A stretch of 60,286 nucleotides of DNA from [Mycobacterium] zoologicum (GTDB lineage: Bacteria > Actinomycetota > Actinomycetes > Mycobacteriales > Mycobacteriaceae). The stretch is from NCBI RefSeq assembly GCF_020172665.1, contig NZ_CP083985.1, positions 2,720,223 through 2,780,508 on the forward strand, in the 5' to 3' direction. The stretch's first letter is position 1. Each line of letters begins with the position of its first letter. A program made the position numbers and the translations under genes. The notes under the pieces are model-generated. The model worked only from the letters and a program-made list of their open reading frames with translations. It had not been told where the DNA came from and searched no databases. Positions 1 through 60,286 of the stretch are shown piece by piece.

Positions 1-127
1 TTGATACGCGTCGATACGACACGCTCGACAACCCCAATTCACCTGGTCACGAAGCGGCGGCCATGACGACGGTCGTGGCCGCCGCTTCACCCTGCCCTTG
101 ACAAACTTCCCTACATATCAGCCGCCG
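1..127. repeat. Left copy of a 127-bp exact inverted terminal repeat
   Basis: These 127 bases are identical to the reverse complement of bases 60160-60286; base 128 is the first mismatch. The segment contains a strong hairpin at 51-88 and no convincing reading frame. The exact length of 127, equal to a common maximum assembly k-mer, suggests that the contig was cut inside a longer repeat present at least twice in the genome. Read in the direction of the adjacent gene (minus strand), it follows the tandem 56-bp units. Confidence 0.9.
51..88. terminator. Large GC-rich hairpin in the terminal repeat
   Basis: A 12-bp perfect stem (GAAGCGGCGGCC, 51-62, with GGCCGCCGCTTC, 77-88) encloses a second 5-bp stem (ACGAC/GTCGT) with an ATG bulge. 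There is no T-tract, which is common for mycobacterial intrinsic terminators. It lies downstream of the leftward DUF3710 gene and, in its second copy at 60199-60236, downstream of the rightward hydrolase gene, so a terminator or repeat-structural role is plausible but unproven. Confidence 0.5.
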
Positions 128-298
128 GTGCCTAAATGGCGGTCCAACTTCGCCTCTCCTCCGTCGAGGCTCGTTAACCGCCGGTGCCTAAACGGCGGCC
201 CAACTTCGCCTCTCCTCCGTCGAGGCTCGTTAACCGCCGGTGCCTAAACGGCGGCCCAACTTCGCCTCTCCTCCGTCGAGGCTCGTTAACCGCCGGTG
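123..298 (-). repeat. Three tandem 56-bp units (plus 8 bp) carrying the stop codon of the DUF3710 gene
   Basis: Units span 123-178, 179-234 and 235-290, with an 8-bp partial at 291-298. Units 2 and 3 are identical; unit 1 differs at two positions near its end (C to T changes at about 143 and 149). In the gene direction each unit begins at a GTTAAC whose TAA is the DUF3710 stop, then has a GGAGGAGAGG ribosome-binding-like run, a short TTG-started frame and a small CCGCCG/CGGCGG hairpin. A diverged single unit lies at 60109-60164. There are no spacers, so this is a minisatellite, not a CRISPR array. Confidence 0.9.
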
Positions 299-1053
299 AT
301 AGTCCGTAGCTGCTGCATCGCCGAGCCCTCGACACTGCGGCGCGCGGCCGGCTCGGCCGGAGGCGGCGGGGCCTGTTGGGCCTGTTGGTCCTGTTGGGCC
401 TGCTGCGCCTGTTGCGCCGCAGCGGCCCGCAACTGCTCGGCCATCGGCTCGGGCAGCTGCACCGGCAGCGGGGTACGCACCGGCATCGGGGTGTCACCGC
501 GACGGACAACGGTGTCCGCCAAGGCTTCCCGGGCCTGCGCGGTCAGCGCGTCCATGGTCTCCGGCCGGCCGTTGACCACGCACCGCACCATCCAGCGATA
601 ACCGTCCACGCCGATGAAACGGACGGAGCCGGTCGCCGAACCGAGCACCTCCCGGCCCCACGGGCCGTCGACGATGCTGACGCTGGCGGAGTCCTTACGC
701 AGCGCATCGGCCAACTCGCCGGCCACCTCACGCCACAATCCGGCAGACTTCGGCGCGGCATAGGCCGCGATGTTGAACCGCCCGTTGGCCGTCACCAGCC
801 ACACCGCGCTGGGCACACCGGCATCGCTCAGTTCGACCTGAACCTGGGCGCCCTCGGGCATCGGCACCAGCACCGAACCCAAGTCGAGGCGGGCCGTGGT
901 CGCAGCCGCCGGGTCGTCGAAGTCCTCGATGTCGAAAGGGCCGTCGAGCTCCTCGCCGAAGTCGACCTCGTCGTCCTGCGGCTCAAGACCACCCAGGTCC
1001 GAATCACCGGTGGGCTCGCCGGCCGATCCGCCTTTGCCCCTACCGAATGCCAT
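286..1053 (-). CDS. DUF3710 domain protein (Rv2696c-like)
   Basis: A 255-residue protein of the actinobacterial DUF3710 family, function unknown. An acidic N-terminus (LDGPFDIEDFDD) leads into a compact central domain (roughly residues 50-190) containing GLWREVAGELADAL and GPWGREVLG stretches. The C-terminus is a low-complexity Gln/Ala/Pro tail (QQAQQAQQDQQAQQ) ending TITGG. The start was set at ATG 1053 (MAFGRGK); an in-frame start three codons upstream is possible. It lies downstream of dut on the same strand. The last two Gly codons and the stop lie in the 56-bp tandem repeat, so the repeat may have set or altered the C-terminus. Confidence 0.85.
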   Translation of the reverse strand: MAFGRGKGGSAGEPTGDSDLGGLEPQDDEVDFGEELDGPFDIEDFDDPAAATTARLDLGSVLVPMPEGAQVQVELSDAGVPSAVWLVTANGRFNIAAYAAPKSAGLWREVAGELADALRKDSASVSIVDGPWGREVLGSATGSVRFIGVDGYRWMVRCVVNGRPETMDALTAQAREALADTVVRRGDTPMPVRTPLPVQLPEPMAEQLRAAAAQQAQQAQQDQQAQQAPPPPAEPAARRSVEGSAMQQLRTITGG

Positions 1054-1082
1054 CACGCCCACCCATCTTCGTCACTTCGCTA

Positions 1083-2547: not shown

Positions 2548-3198
2548 GTGGTCACGCAAATCACCTCCGGCACCGAGTTCGACAAGCATGGCCTGCCGTT
2601 CCGGCGGCGCAACAACCGGCCGGCGGCCTACGCCCTGGCCTGCCTGGCCCTGCTGACCGCGGTCGCCTGGGGGGTCGCACTGACCCGGCCGGCCGACGTC
2701 CATGAGGTGGCGGTGTGCAACGCGCCGCCGGCTCCGACCGAGCCTGACCAGCCGCGACTGGGCACCAAGGTGGCGAGCGCGGCGATGATCACCGCGACCC
2801 CGGCCAAGTTGGCCGAGGTCAAGGCCCGTGTCCTCAACGCCAGCGGGCGGGCCGGGCAGGCCGCCGACACCGCCGACGCGCTGCGCGACGAGGGCTTTCC
2901 GCAGCCGACCGCGGCCAACGATCCGATCTACGCAGGCGACCCGCTGGACTGCCACGGCCAGATTCGTTTCGGCCAGGCGGGCCAAGCCGCCGCGGCCGCC
3001 GTTTGGCTGGTCGCGCCGTGCGCGGAACTGTTCCGCGACGACCGCACCGACGACTCCGTCGACCTGGCGGTCGGAAGCGACTTCGTCAGCCTGGCGCACA
3101 GTGACGACATCGAGGCAGCACTGGCCGGACTGCGTCCGGATGCCACCGGGCTGCCCGACCGGGCCCTGTTGACCAAGATCCATTCCGGCACCTGCTGA
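2548..3198 (+). CDS. cei: Envelope integrity protein Cei, LytR_C domain (Rv2700-like)
   Basis: A 216-residue membrane-anchored protein with a basic cytoplasmic N-terminus (FRRRN), one membrane helix near residues 26-45 (AAYALACLALLTAVAWGVAL) and an extracytoplasmic region with an LytR C-terminal-type domain (about 85-145: KARVLNASGRAGQAADTADALRDEGF). M. tuberculosis Rv2700 was named Cei for its role in cell envelope integrity. Start chosen at GTG 2548 because of the -10 box. In H37Rv suhB lies between this gene and ppgK; here only 29 bp separate them. Confidence 0.85.
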   Translation: MVTQITSGTEFDKHGLPFRRRNNRPAAYALACLALLTAVAWGVALTRPADVHEVAVCNAPPAPTEPDQPRLGTKVASAAMITATPAKLAEVKARVLNASGRAGQAADTADALRDEGFPQPTAANDPIYAGDPLDCHGQIRFGQAGQAAAAAVWLVAPCAELFRDDRTDDSVDLAVGSDFVSLAHSDDIEAALAGLRPDATGLPDRALLTKIHSGTC

Positions 3199-58532: not shown

Positions 58533-59329
58533 ACCGCCACAGGCGCCTTGATCGCCGGGTGCGGGTCGTAGCCACGGATCTCGATGTCGTCGAACGTGTA
58601 ATCGAAGATCGAATCCCGCTGCGCTAGAACAAGTTCCGGGTAAGCGCGCGGTTCGCGGGACAGCTGCTCGCGGACCTGTTCGAGGTGGTTGTCGTAGATG
58701 TGGCAGTCGCCGCCGGTCCAGACGAACTCCCCCAGACCCAACCCGGCCTGTTCGGCCATCATATGCGTGAGCAACGCATAGCTGGCGATGTTGAACGGCA
58801 CCCCGAGGAACAGGTCCGCGCTGCGCTGATACAGCTGACACGACAGCCGGCCGTCGGCGACGTAGAACTGGAACAGGGCGTGGCACGGGGCCAGCGCCAT
58901 CTTGTCCAGTTCGCTGACATTCCACGCCGAGACGATGATGCGCCGCGAATCCGGGTCGGTGCGCAGTAACTGGACCGCGCGCGCGATCTGGTCGATGTGC
59001 TCACCGGACGGGGTCGGCCAAGACCGCCACTGCACCCCGTAGACCGGCCCGAGATCGCCTGTCTCGGAAGCCCATTCGTCCCAAATGGTGACGCCGTTCT
59101 CGTTGAGCCAGTCGATGTTGGAGTCACCGCGCAGAAACCACAGCAGCTCGTAGATCACCGATTTGAGGTGCACCTTCTTGGTGGTGATCAGCGGAAATCC
59201 GGCGGACAGGTCATAGCGCAGCTGGTGACCGAACAGGCTGCGGGTGCCGGTACCGGTGCGGTCGGCCTTGGGGGTGCCCTGCGCCAGCACCAGCCGCAGC
59301 AGGTCCTCATACGGGGTCGCGATCGGCAC
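58529..59329 (-). CDS. thyA: Thymidylate synthase ThyA
   Basis: Methylates dUMP to dTMP. The 266-residue protein has the dUMP/phosphate Arg region [31 protein letters not shown], the catalytic Cys in [43 protein letters not shown], and the C-terminal [14 protein letters not shown] 59329 ([11 protein letters not shown]) is preferred; M. tuberculosis starts slightly later at MTPYEDLL. First gene of thyA-dfrA-alkZ-like. Confidence 0.97.
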
Positions 59330-59372
59330 GTCGCCCAGCCTAGCGGTGATCGGGCGGAGTACAACGGAAGCC

Positions 59373-60113
59373 ATGCCCGCAATCAGCGACACCATCACCA
59401 CGCCCGACGGCAGCTGCCCGGCCAAGCTGTTCACCCCCGACGGTCCGGGCCCGTGGCCCGGCGTCGTCATGTACGTCGACGCCGGGGGTGTCCGCGACAC
59501 CTTCGACGGCATGGCCGCCGAGCTGGCCGGGTTCGGCTACGCCGTGCTGCTGCCCGACGTCTACTACCGCCATCCGGGCTGGGCGCCGTTCGACATGGGG
59601 ACGGTATTCGGCGACGCCAAGGAGCGCGCCCGGCTGTTCTCGATGATCGGCCAGGTGACGCAGGATCGGATGGTCACCGATGCCGGGGCGTTCTTCGACT
59701 ATCTGGCCGGGCGTCCGGAGGTCCGCGGTGATCGGTTCGGGGTGTGCGGCTACTGCATGGGCGGGCGTACCTCGGTGGTGGTGGCCGGGCGTGTCCCGGA
59801 GCGGGTTGCCGCAGCGGCGTCGTTCCACGGCGGTGGGTTGGTCACCGACACACCGGACAGCCCGCACCTGCTGGCCGAGAAGATGCGGGCCAGGGTATAT
59901 GTGGCCGGCGCCAAGAACGACGGCGCGTTCACCAAGGCCCACGCAGCGACGCTGGACGAGGCGCTGGCCGAGGCCGGCGTTGAGCACACCGTCGAGTTCT
60001 ATCCCGCCGAGCACGGCTTCGCCGTCCCCGACAACGCGCCCTATGACGCCGACGCGTCGGCCCGGCACTGGGCGGCGTTGCGCGAGGTGTTCGGCGCCGC
60101 GCTCGGCGGCTAG
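59373..60113 (+). CDS. Dienelactone hydrolase family protein (Rv2765-like)
   Basis: A 246-residue alpha/beta hydrolase. Nucleophile Cys in [14 protein letters not shown] (about residue 127), acid region AGAKNDGAF, and His in [12 protein letters not shown] complete the DLH Cys-Asp-His triad; [37 protein letters not shown] is the N-terminal core. Substrate unknown. It is divergent from thyA (43 bp). The final Gly-Gly codons and TAG lie within the 56-bp repeat unit that continues past the stop. Confidence 0.92.
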
Positions 60114-60164
60114 CGAGGCTCGACGGAGGAGAGGCGAAGCTGGGCCGCCGCATAAACCTCGGCG
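60109..60164 (+). repeat. Single diverged 56-bp stop-codon repeat unit at the hydrolase 3' end
   Basis: By my alignment about 46 of 56 bases match the units at 123-290 read on the minus strand. It has the same layout: stop codon of the gene (TAG here), GGAGGAGAGG run, short frame (LGRRINLGG then TGA) and CCGCCG/CGGCGG stem. The loop sequence differs while the stem is preserved. Confidence 0.85.
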
Positions 60165-60286
60165 GCTGATATGTAGGGAAGTTTGTCAAGGGCAGGGTGA
60201 AGCGGCGGCCACGACCGTCGTCATGGCCGCCGCTTCGTGACCAGGTGAATTGGGGTTGTCGAGCGTGTCGTATCGACGCGTATCAA
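60160..60286. repeat. Right copy of the 127-bp exact inverted terminal repeat
   Basis: Exact reverse complement of 1-127. It follows the hydrolase gene and its 56-bp unit in the same relative orientation as the left copy follows the DUF3710 gene. It contains the hairpin at 60199-60236 and no gene. Confidence 0.9.
60199..60236. terminator. Large hairpin, right copy
   Basis: Same 12-bp plus 5-bp stem as at 51-88, about 86 bp past the hydrolase stop codon. Possible terminator without a T-tract. Confidence 0.45.

Follow-up and report, generated by a model that had tools for sequence, protein, structure and literature searches.

A family of imperfect palindromes of about 57 bp, probably a non-autonomous mobile element, found in frame within genes, at gene 3' ends and between genes of Mycolicibacter

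The window, meaning the whole 60,286-nucleotide stretch of DNA analysed here (forward-strand positions 2,720,223 to 2,780,508 of NZ_CP083985.1, [Mycobacterium] zoologicum), is one contig of a scaffolded assembly, with 100-N gaps at both of its borders. At each end a protein-encoding gene overlaps a short palindromic repeat, which is followed by sequence shared between the two contig ends:

1-121, plus strand: right end of an insertion sequence of the IS110 family, cut short at the contig border (inverted copy at 60160-60286; boundary at about 121-122, judged from relatives)
126-187, 182-243 and 238-299, minus strand: three tandem palindromic units of a 56-bp subtype (covariance model matches and a Tandem Repeats Finder array at 122-298)
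286-1062, minus strand: DUF3710 gene (ORF; Pfam PF12502, E 1.3e-56), C-terminus ITGG-TAA, its stop at 286-288 overlapping the first unit
59244-60113, plus strand: dienelactone-hydrolase family gene (ORF list; Pfam DLH PF01738, E 2e-51), ending ALGG-TAG within the repeat, stop at 60111-60113; the start is uncertain, 59244 in the ORF list and 59373 according to our own codon-usage gene caller
about 60100-60161, plus strand: single palindromic unit at the hydrolase gene end, assigned to the 56-bp subtype by its 5' half (covariance model match, genome 2780322-2780383)
60166-60286, minus strand: the same IS110-family right end again, at the opposite border of the contig (inverted match to the window start, shared contig ends)

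A sequence-only reading of this window had described three tandem units on the left and one related unit on the right, and both Tandem Repeats Finder (3.2 copies of a 56-bp unit at 122-298, 98% matches) and the covariance model agree, the latter placing the left array at genome positions 2720348-2720521 (window positions are genome positions minus 2720222). That reading also had the letters right in placing the stops of the DUF3710 gene (ITGG-TAA) and the hydrolase gene (ALGG-TAG) inside the repeat, and both repeats are indeed oriented with their gene. By eye, the minus strand of 126-299 shows GGAGGAG in each unit and, 8 nt later, a TTG opening a mini-ORF that stops at the next TGG-TAA or, in the last unit, at a TGG-TGA at the junction with the insertion sequence.

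Window positions 1-127 are the exact reverse complement of 60160-60286, over exactly 127 bp. This flank had been taken for part of the repeat element; the copy is as exact as claimed, but the flank does not belong to the repeat. Its sequence occurs on five contig ends of the genome, matching over 125-127 bp, and a second end sequence is common to four of the five neighbouring contigs across the N gaps. Plasmids, most of them from Rhodococcus, carry related end sequences (one end in 19 plasmid records, the second in 7), and an annotated IS110-family transposase lies between the two ends on the Rhodococcus plasmid pLPS8. The sharing of contig ends together with the pLPS8 transposase therefore identifies the flank as an IS110-family right end collapsed by assembly; the IS110 identity comes from the related ends on pLPS8, the genome's own copies having been collapsed into N gaps. 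The length of 127 bp apparently reflects the k-mer overlap of the assembly, and since the match in the closest relatives stops at 121-124 the true boundary of the insertion sequence lies near window position 121. The flank is thus an element separate from the 56-bp repeat, and we rejected it as a part of the latter.

Some further observations concern the insertion sequence (here and below, L numbers denote loci, or places, and G numbers genomes, with G000 the genome of the window). Two of its five right ends in the genome (L061-L065) abut palindromic units. On its left side three flanking genes (L062, L063, L065) have, by eye, their TAG stop at the CTAG with which the left end begins. In another species (G065), related IS110-family right ends (L067, L082, L087) are each followed by GATTTCGGTG or GATTTGGGTG, and at L067 and L087 a matching CCGAAATC arm lies no more than 60 bases further on, which suggests that this IS110 group also prefers palindromes in that species. 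A search of the five loci L061-L065, two of which carry units, returned no Rfam family at gathering score.

BLAST located 28 dispersed places with the repeat, plus two chance-level matches. A covariance model built from 29 units, with a match threshold of E 0.01 or better, identified at least 47 units grouped into 37 places in the window's own genome and at least 84 units at 59 places in a relative, G022, the second high-copy genome counted; these copy numbers are lower bounds, with 150 candidates scored in each of the two genomes, and 36 and 17 per genome in the samples of 148 and 301 genomes described next. Because the unit recurs at 37 places, the window repeat is beyond chance, and the claim of an interspersed family was borne out in this genome and in its relatives. 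With stricter filters, the model classed 9 of 148 genomes of the genus as high-copy and 3 as single-copy and found no match in 136; among 301 genomes of the family there were 6 with matches (5 with many, 1 with a single one), all of the same genus. A pattern for the junction at the DUF3710 gene end matched 8 named genomes, all Mycolicibacter, and an insert in enoyl-CoA hydratase was present in 3 proteins (that of our genome and those named M. heraklionensis and M. longobardus) and absent from 117 of the 120 homologues listed. Since separate genomes carry the family, it is very unlikely to be an assembly artefact. A lone full-length copy between two called genes in G177 (L347, approximately 3001-3063) lies outside the high-copy group, possibly as a result of horizontal transfer. 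Plasmid and phage records contained no match to a three-unit query at E 1e-3.

The sense-strand consensus of the unit is CCGGCGGTTCAGCGAGGCTCGACGNAGGAGAGGCGAAGCTGGGACCGCCGCATGAACCCGG, and its arms, CGGCGGT and ACCGCCG, pair to make an imperfect palindrome. The arms covary: across 108 distinct place-and-arm combinations from the two genomes, stem positions 2, 3 and 4 paired more often than with shuffled partners (p 0.0098, 0.0002 and 0.0004), position 1 not significantly so (p 0.08; many of its C-to-T changes would give G-T pairs), and position 5, outside the stem, showed no pairing signal (p 0.99). These p values, like those of the other pooled tests below (flank identity, subtype split, frame use), overstate independence because the two genomes have inherited some of the places in common, for example L047/L287 and L056/L123. 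Pairing was counted by script, as the automatic structure of the covariance model missed the outer stem because MAFFT had shifted the arms. The predicted RNA folds of single units are unexceptional (z -0.9 to -2.1).

Units fall into two subtypes, one of 57 bp (GGTTCAGC..GCTGGGACC) and one with a period 1 bp shorter (GGTTAGC or GGTCAGC..GCTGGACC). The 57-bp subtype accounts for 33 of 35 typable in-gene places versus 36 of 57 others (two genomes pooled, Fisher p 9e-4; four places, L184 and L185 of our genome and L317 and L323 of G022, had no readable core and are excluded); taken singly, the split between genes and elsewhere has p 6e-4 in our own genome and is not significant in G022 (p 0.19). 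The short subtype occupies 11 of 14 typable edge places versus 10 of 43 intergenic ones (p 4e-4). This partition would fit the loss of frame-breaking insertions from genes.

According to a codon-usage gene caller of our own, trained on the window and distinct from curated annotation, 14 of the 37 places in our genome lie inside ORFs, 8 at gene edges and 15 between genes; the corresponding numbers for the 59 places of G022 are 22, 7 and 30, in-gene status there being a prediction of the caller. The in-gene copies are read through in frame. Their hosts in our genome include acetyl-CoA synthetase (L051), enoyl-CoA hydratase (L047), KshA (L056), an alpha/beta hydrolase (L043), a carboxyl transferase (L048), an ABC-transporter ATPase (L054), an Emb-type arabinosyltransferase (L044), NRPS-type proteins (L046, L050) and a BTAD/AAA regulator with three tandem units (L032), and Pfam domains span the insert at L043, L044, L046, L047, L048, L053, L054 and L056. 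The commonest peptide frame reads GG-S-A-(R/S)-L-D-(G/E)-GEAKLGPPHE; the frame GGSA(R/S)LD(G/E)GEAKLGPP and close variants of it are used at 25 of 36 in-gene places of the two genomes (binomial p 3e-12 against one in six), and 29 of these places are co-oriented with their gene and 7 opposite (binomial p 3e-4 against one half). Open reading frames were considered as a special property of the unit and rejected, 4 of 6 being open where shuffled units average 4.4. An AlphaFold prediction of the enoyl-CoA hydratase reached a mean pLDDT of 74, with the five models ranging from 74 to 45 and the insert at low confidence (block means 51, 49 and 68), and was given little weight. A doubled form of the peptide matched no PDB chain at E 1. 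In one G022 copy (L332) the 3' arm of the unit furnishes the ATG with which the following called gene begins (MHKHSDVAVRVIPCLDVDGGRV..); here a start codon, not a stop codon, comes from the element.

To compare occupied and empty sites, the upstream flanks of 19 gene-linked places of our genome were searched in seven relatives and the orthologous DNA was aligned. At least one orthologue has an empty site for 12 of the 14 in-gene places, the other two, L036 (no orthologue found) and L044 (flank not in the query), being excluded from the comparison. Anchored alignments at the in-gene places gave 61 length differences (two weak alignments, G078 at L032 and G155 at L034, are excluded), 39 of which are exactly 57 bp per unit: 31 of 57 bp, 5 of 114 bp at the two-unit place L033 and 3 of 171 bp at the three-unit place L032. 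Four of the 61 compared orthologues also carry the element, with differences of 0, -6, -9 and -123, and the other 18 comparisons give 48 to 93 bp, as would result from small indels on top of the insert; four of these are at L034, where one of two units is degenerate. Altogether 59 of the 61 differences are multiples of three, both exceptions being at L034. At L033, a clean empty site, our genome reads GAGCACGGCG, then the insert, then CACGGCGAGAAC, where G016 has GAGCACGGCGAGAAC; at L043, another, the insert is bordered on either side by CACGGCGATTC, which occurs once, exactly or as a close variant, in relatives.

A probable duplication of the flank also leaves a statistical signal. When the 8 bases in front of the unit are compared with those a full period further on, over 68 places of the 57-bp subtype, they agree at 344 of 544 positions, versus 307 after shuffling (p 0.0002), and at in-gene places alone at 169 of 264, versus 156.5 (p 0.0027); per-position effects are modest, and the signal is partly confounded because the 5' end of the element itself (CGGCGG) resembles the target. 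A terminal inverted repeat of about 5 bp, with GTTCA..TGAAC ends, is visible by eye.

Both repeats of the window lie at gene ends, and the sequence-only reading had proposed an element that inserts at, or is captured by, gene 3' ends, supplies the stop codon and rewrites the C-terminus. A co-oriented class of this kind is real: 14 places of the two genomes overlap a gene 3' end, by an overlap-based count that misses a few gene-end copies scored as intergenic, with 13 of the 14 co-oriented and 10 following a Gly-Gly-stop. Most places are elsewhere, however, gene edges making up only 15 of 96 in our genome and G022 together, and in-gene copies occur in both orientations. Of the two outcomes that this reading had named as refuting it, the one on the positions and orientations of other copies is observed, and the one on a shared Gly-Gly-stop in repeat-free orthologues is observed for one of the two window genes. 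The proposed source of the DUF3710 stop did not survive comparison with relatives. Among the best 29 DUF3710 orthologues from 144 other genomes, one of which runs off its contig, all 28 readable ends are TGG-stop, and so are all 23 of those free of the repeat (no element in the next 110 bases), by which the candidate was rejected; the gene likely had its own stop codon before the repeat arrived, as these sequence comparisons suggest. The number of units at this gene end varies, with 3 in our genome, 4 in G022 and none in G073 and G016.

Rewriting of the C-terminus fared better at other genes than at DUF3710. Repeat-free hydrolase orthologues end LTG*, LTG*, GGSISG*, LQAG* and ALT*, none of the five in GG-stop, and LGG terminates the G073 orthologue, which has part of a unit; at L058 the ends are M* in three repeat-free orthologues, RVVR* in a fourth (G022) and AVQ* in our copy. 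At such sites the last one to few residues have therefore changed. By eye, a Gly-Gly-stop is also found in repeat-free relatives at L181 (G016; G073 has CG-stop), at L182 (G073) and, in one of seven relatives, at L183 (G016; four have HGS-stop and two differ). The element thus often lands on a native GGCGG-stop and may alter a few residues there, but it is not a general source of stop codons. In the L183 orthologues L188, L196 and L191, from three relatives, the gene end that carries the 56-bp unit in our genome holds another long inverted repeat instead, ..GTTGACTCTGCG..CGCAGAGTCAAC.. (L191 has it in imperfect form), which possibly represents a second palindromic family.

We consider it quite probable that this family of imperfect palindromes of about 57 bp is a non-autonomous mobile element found in frame in genes, at gene 3' ends and between genes, the repeat being likely a tiny selfish DNA element. 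Under such a model the element would insert at CGGCG-like sites and leave a short stretch of the target on both sides. One inserted unit would lengthen the site by 57 bp, and a coding gene would stay in frame because of that length, gaining 19 codons; additional units would arise as tandem copies of equal period. Within genes, copies would survive where they add a net 57 bp, and frame-breaking ones would presumably be purged. The short subtype is common at gene ends, where it mostly adjoins a Gly-Gly-stop also present in some relatives lacking the repeat; inside genes it is rare. Searches of our own genome with patterns for the unit's ends found no larger element bearing both and no mobiliser, although scaffold gaps could hide one. 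All 15 matches to the right-end pattern were in known places; the left-end pattern, at up to one mismatch, gave 7 matches outside them, and the 6 examined comprised two partial left halves (L348, L351) and four chance-like matches in genes. The L348 and L351 copies consist of the left half of the unit only, and that at L351 lies at an ORF start and reads SSSLAEPS.

How such an element moves, and what keeps it, may be explained in several ways. Movement in trans by a resident transposase, possibly that of the neighbouring IS110-family element, would make the repeat a conventional MITE with short terminal inverted repeats and a target duplication. The GTTCA..TGAAC ends and the flanking duplication seen by eye are consistent with this, as are the two of five IS110-family right ends that adjoin palindromes and a survey in which the IS110 family was the one most often associated with REP sequences (PMC1525189); against it, by eye the IS110 ends and the unit have no sequence in common past the junction, the pattern searches found no larger element with the unit's two ends, and arms that vary from site to site would be unusual for the fixed end that a transposase recognises. 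We regard this as possible but somewhat doubtful, and hold with equal reserve the more specific idea of a parasite living inside proteins. According to that idea, a hairpin unit locked at 57 bp, or 19 codons, would aim at CGGCG(A), in frame the codons of Gly-Asp/Glu turns, and would form a flexible hydrophilic loop in enzymes that keep working; its stem arms would be rewritten from the target flank at each insertion, a sister subtype shorter by 1 bp would serve the Gly-Gly-stop, and movement would proceed by hairpin-templated copying instead of a classical transposase.

It is unlikely, in our estimation, that the repeat is a hairpin selected by the host in the manner of MIRU or REP sequences, kept for a function in termination, mRNA stability or translational coupling and not through selfish spread. 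In its favour are the covariation of the stem arms, the mini-ORFs with GGAGGAG and TTG that we noticed by eye on the sense strand of the window array, and the published statement that MIRUs are gene-coupled (PMC12548453). Yet 14 of 37 and 22 of 59 places lie in coding sequence, where no signal role is obvious, relatives often lack the element at the equivalent in-gene site, and single-unit folds are unexceptional. More improbable still is that the element is defined by gene 3' ends, to which it would bring a stop codon and a rewritten C-terminus: the co-oriented class, its Gly-Gly-stops and the altered ends of the hydrolase and L058 favour this, but it is refuted for DUF3710 by the repeat-free orthologues, a repeat-free relative has a Gly-Gly-stop at L181, at L182 and (one of seven) at L183 also, and gene edges hold few of the places.

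The closest parallel known to us from the literature is the Rickettsia palindromic element (RPE). Published accounts describe RPEs as palindromic repeats of about 100-150 bp that lie between genes and, in frame, within unrelated conserved protein genes, and report that a guanylate kinase gene carrying one is translated into an active product whose affinity for its substrate is altered (PMC10969869, PMC2229807, PMC3767692). In-frame palindromic insertion into unrelated genes is also found here (14 of 37 own places, paired covarying arms, empty sites at 12 of 14), but the unit is 57 bp long against 100-150 bp and the host is the Mycolicibacter clade and not Rickettsia or Wolbachia; since length and host range fail, we do not count the family as an RPE member. 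By description it further differs from RPEs in being a GC-rich actinobacterial family with tandem arrays, a CGGCG-like target and a separate gene-end subtype. By analogy, it may work like an RPE, shorter and in an unrelated phylum.

Other families offer partial likenesses. MIRUs are described as short interspersed mycobacterial repeats, often tandem and variable in copy number (PMC2734929), and as inserting at start codons with a -4 nt coupling (PMC12548453). Compared by description, interspersed repeats of 40-100 bp in variable tandem number are found here too (56/57-bp units; 3, 4 and 0 at the DUF3710 end), but genes contain 36 of the 96 places and gene 3' ends another 14, a start codon having been noticed in a single case (L332 of G022; the 45 intergenic places lie outside this count), and MIRUs are a weaker analogue because they are described as inserting at start codons. 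The Correia or NEMIS elements of Neisseria, for which two size subtypes are described, one with an open frame and gene-fused and the other almost only intergenic (PMC2229807), parallel the 57/56-bp split, but they measure 107/155 bp, have 24-bp terminal repeats and occupy a host unrelated to Mycolicibacter. REP sequences with RAYT transposases are given as small palindromes of 20-40 bp, some inside genes, tagged GTAG or CGTC (PMC3733652); by eye, our consensus has no constant tag of that kind at the foot of its stem.

In-frame palindromic elements have been described chiefly from Rickettsia and Wolbachia, and reviews mention scattered ERIC and Correia fusions (PMC10969869, PMC2229807); among the papers listed by full-text searches, several of which covered top-ranked papers only, there was no earlier description of the 57-bp Mycolicibacter family. 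If the idea of a parasite inside proteins is true, this family would be the first of protein-coding palindromic elements from Actinobacteria. For annotation there is a warning, as inserts and VNTR-like gene-end arrays vary among congeneric species. Empty sites in sister species, together with the density of the family in a GC-rich actinobacterial clade, provide many natural insertion experiments in conserved enzymes, and two old questions become testable: how palindromic elements move, and how proteins tolerate sudden insertions of 19 residues.
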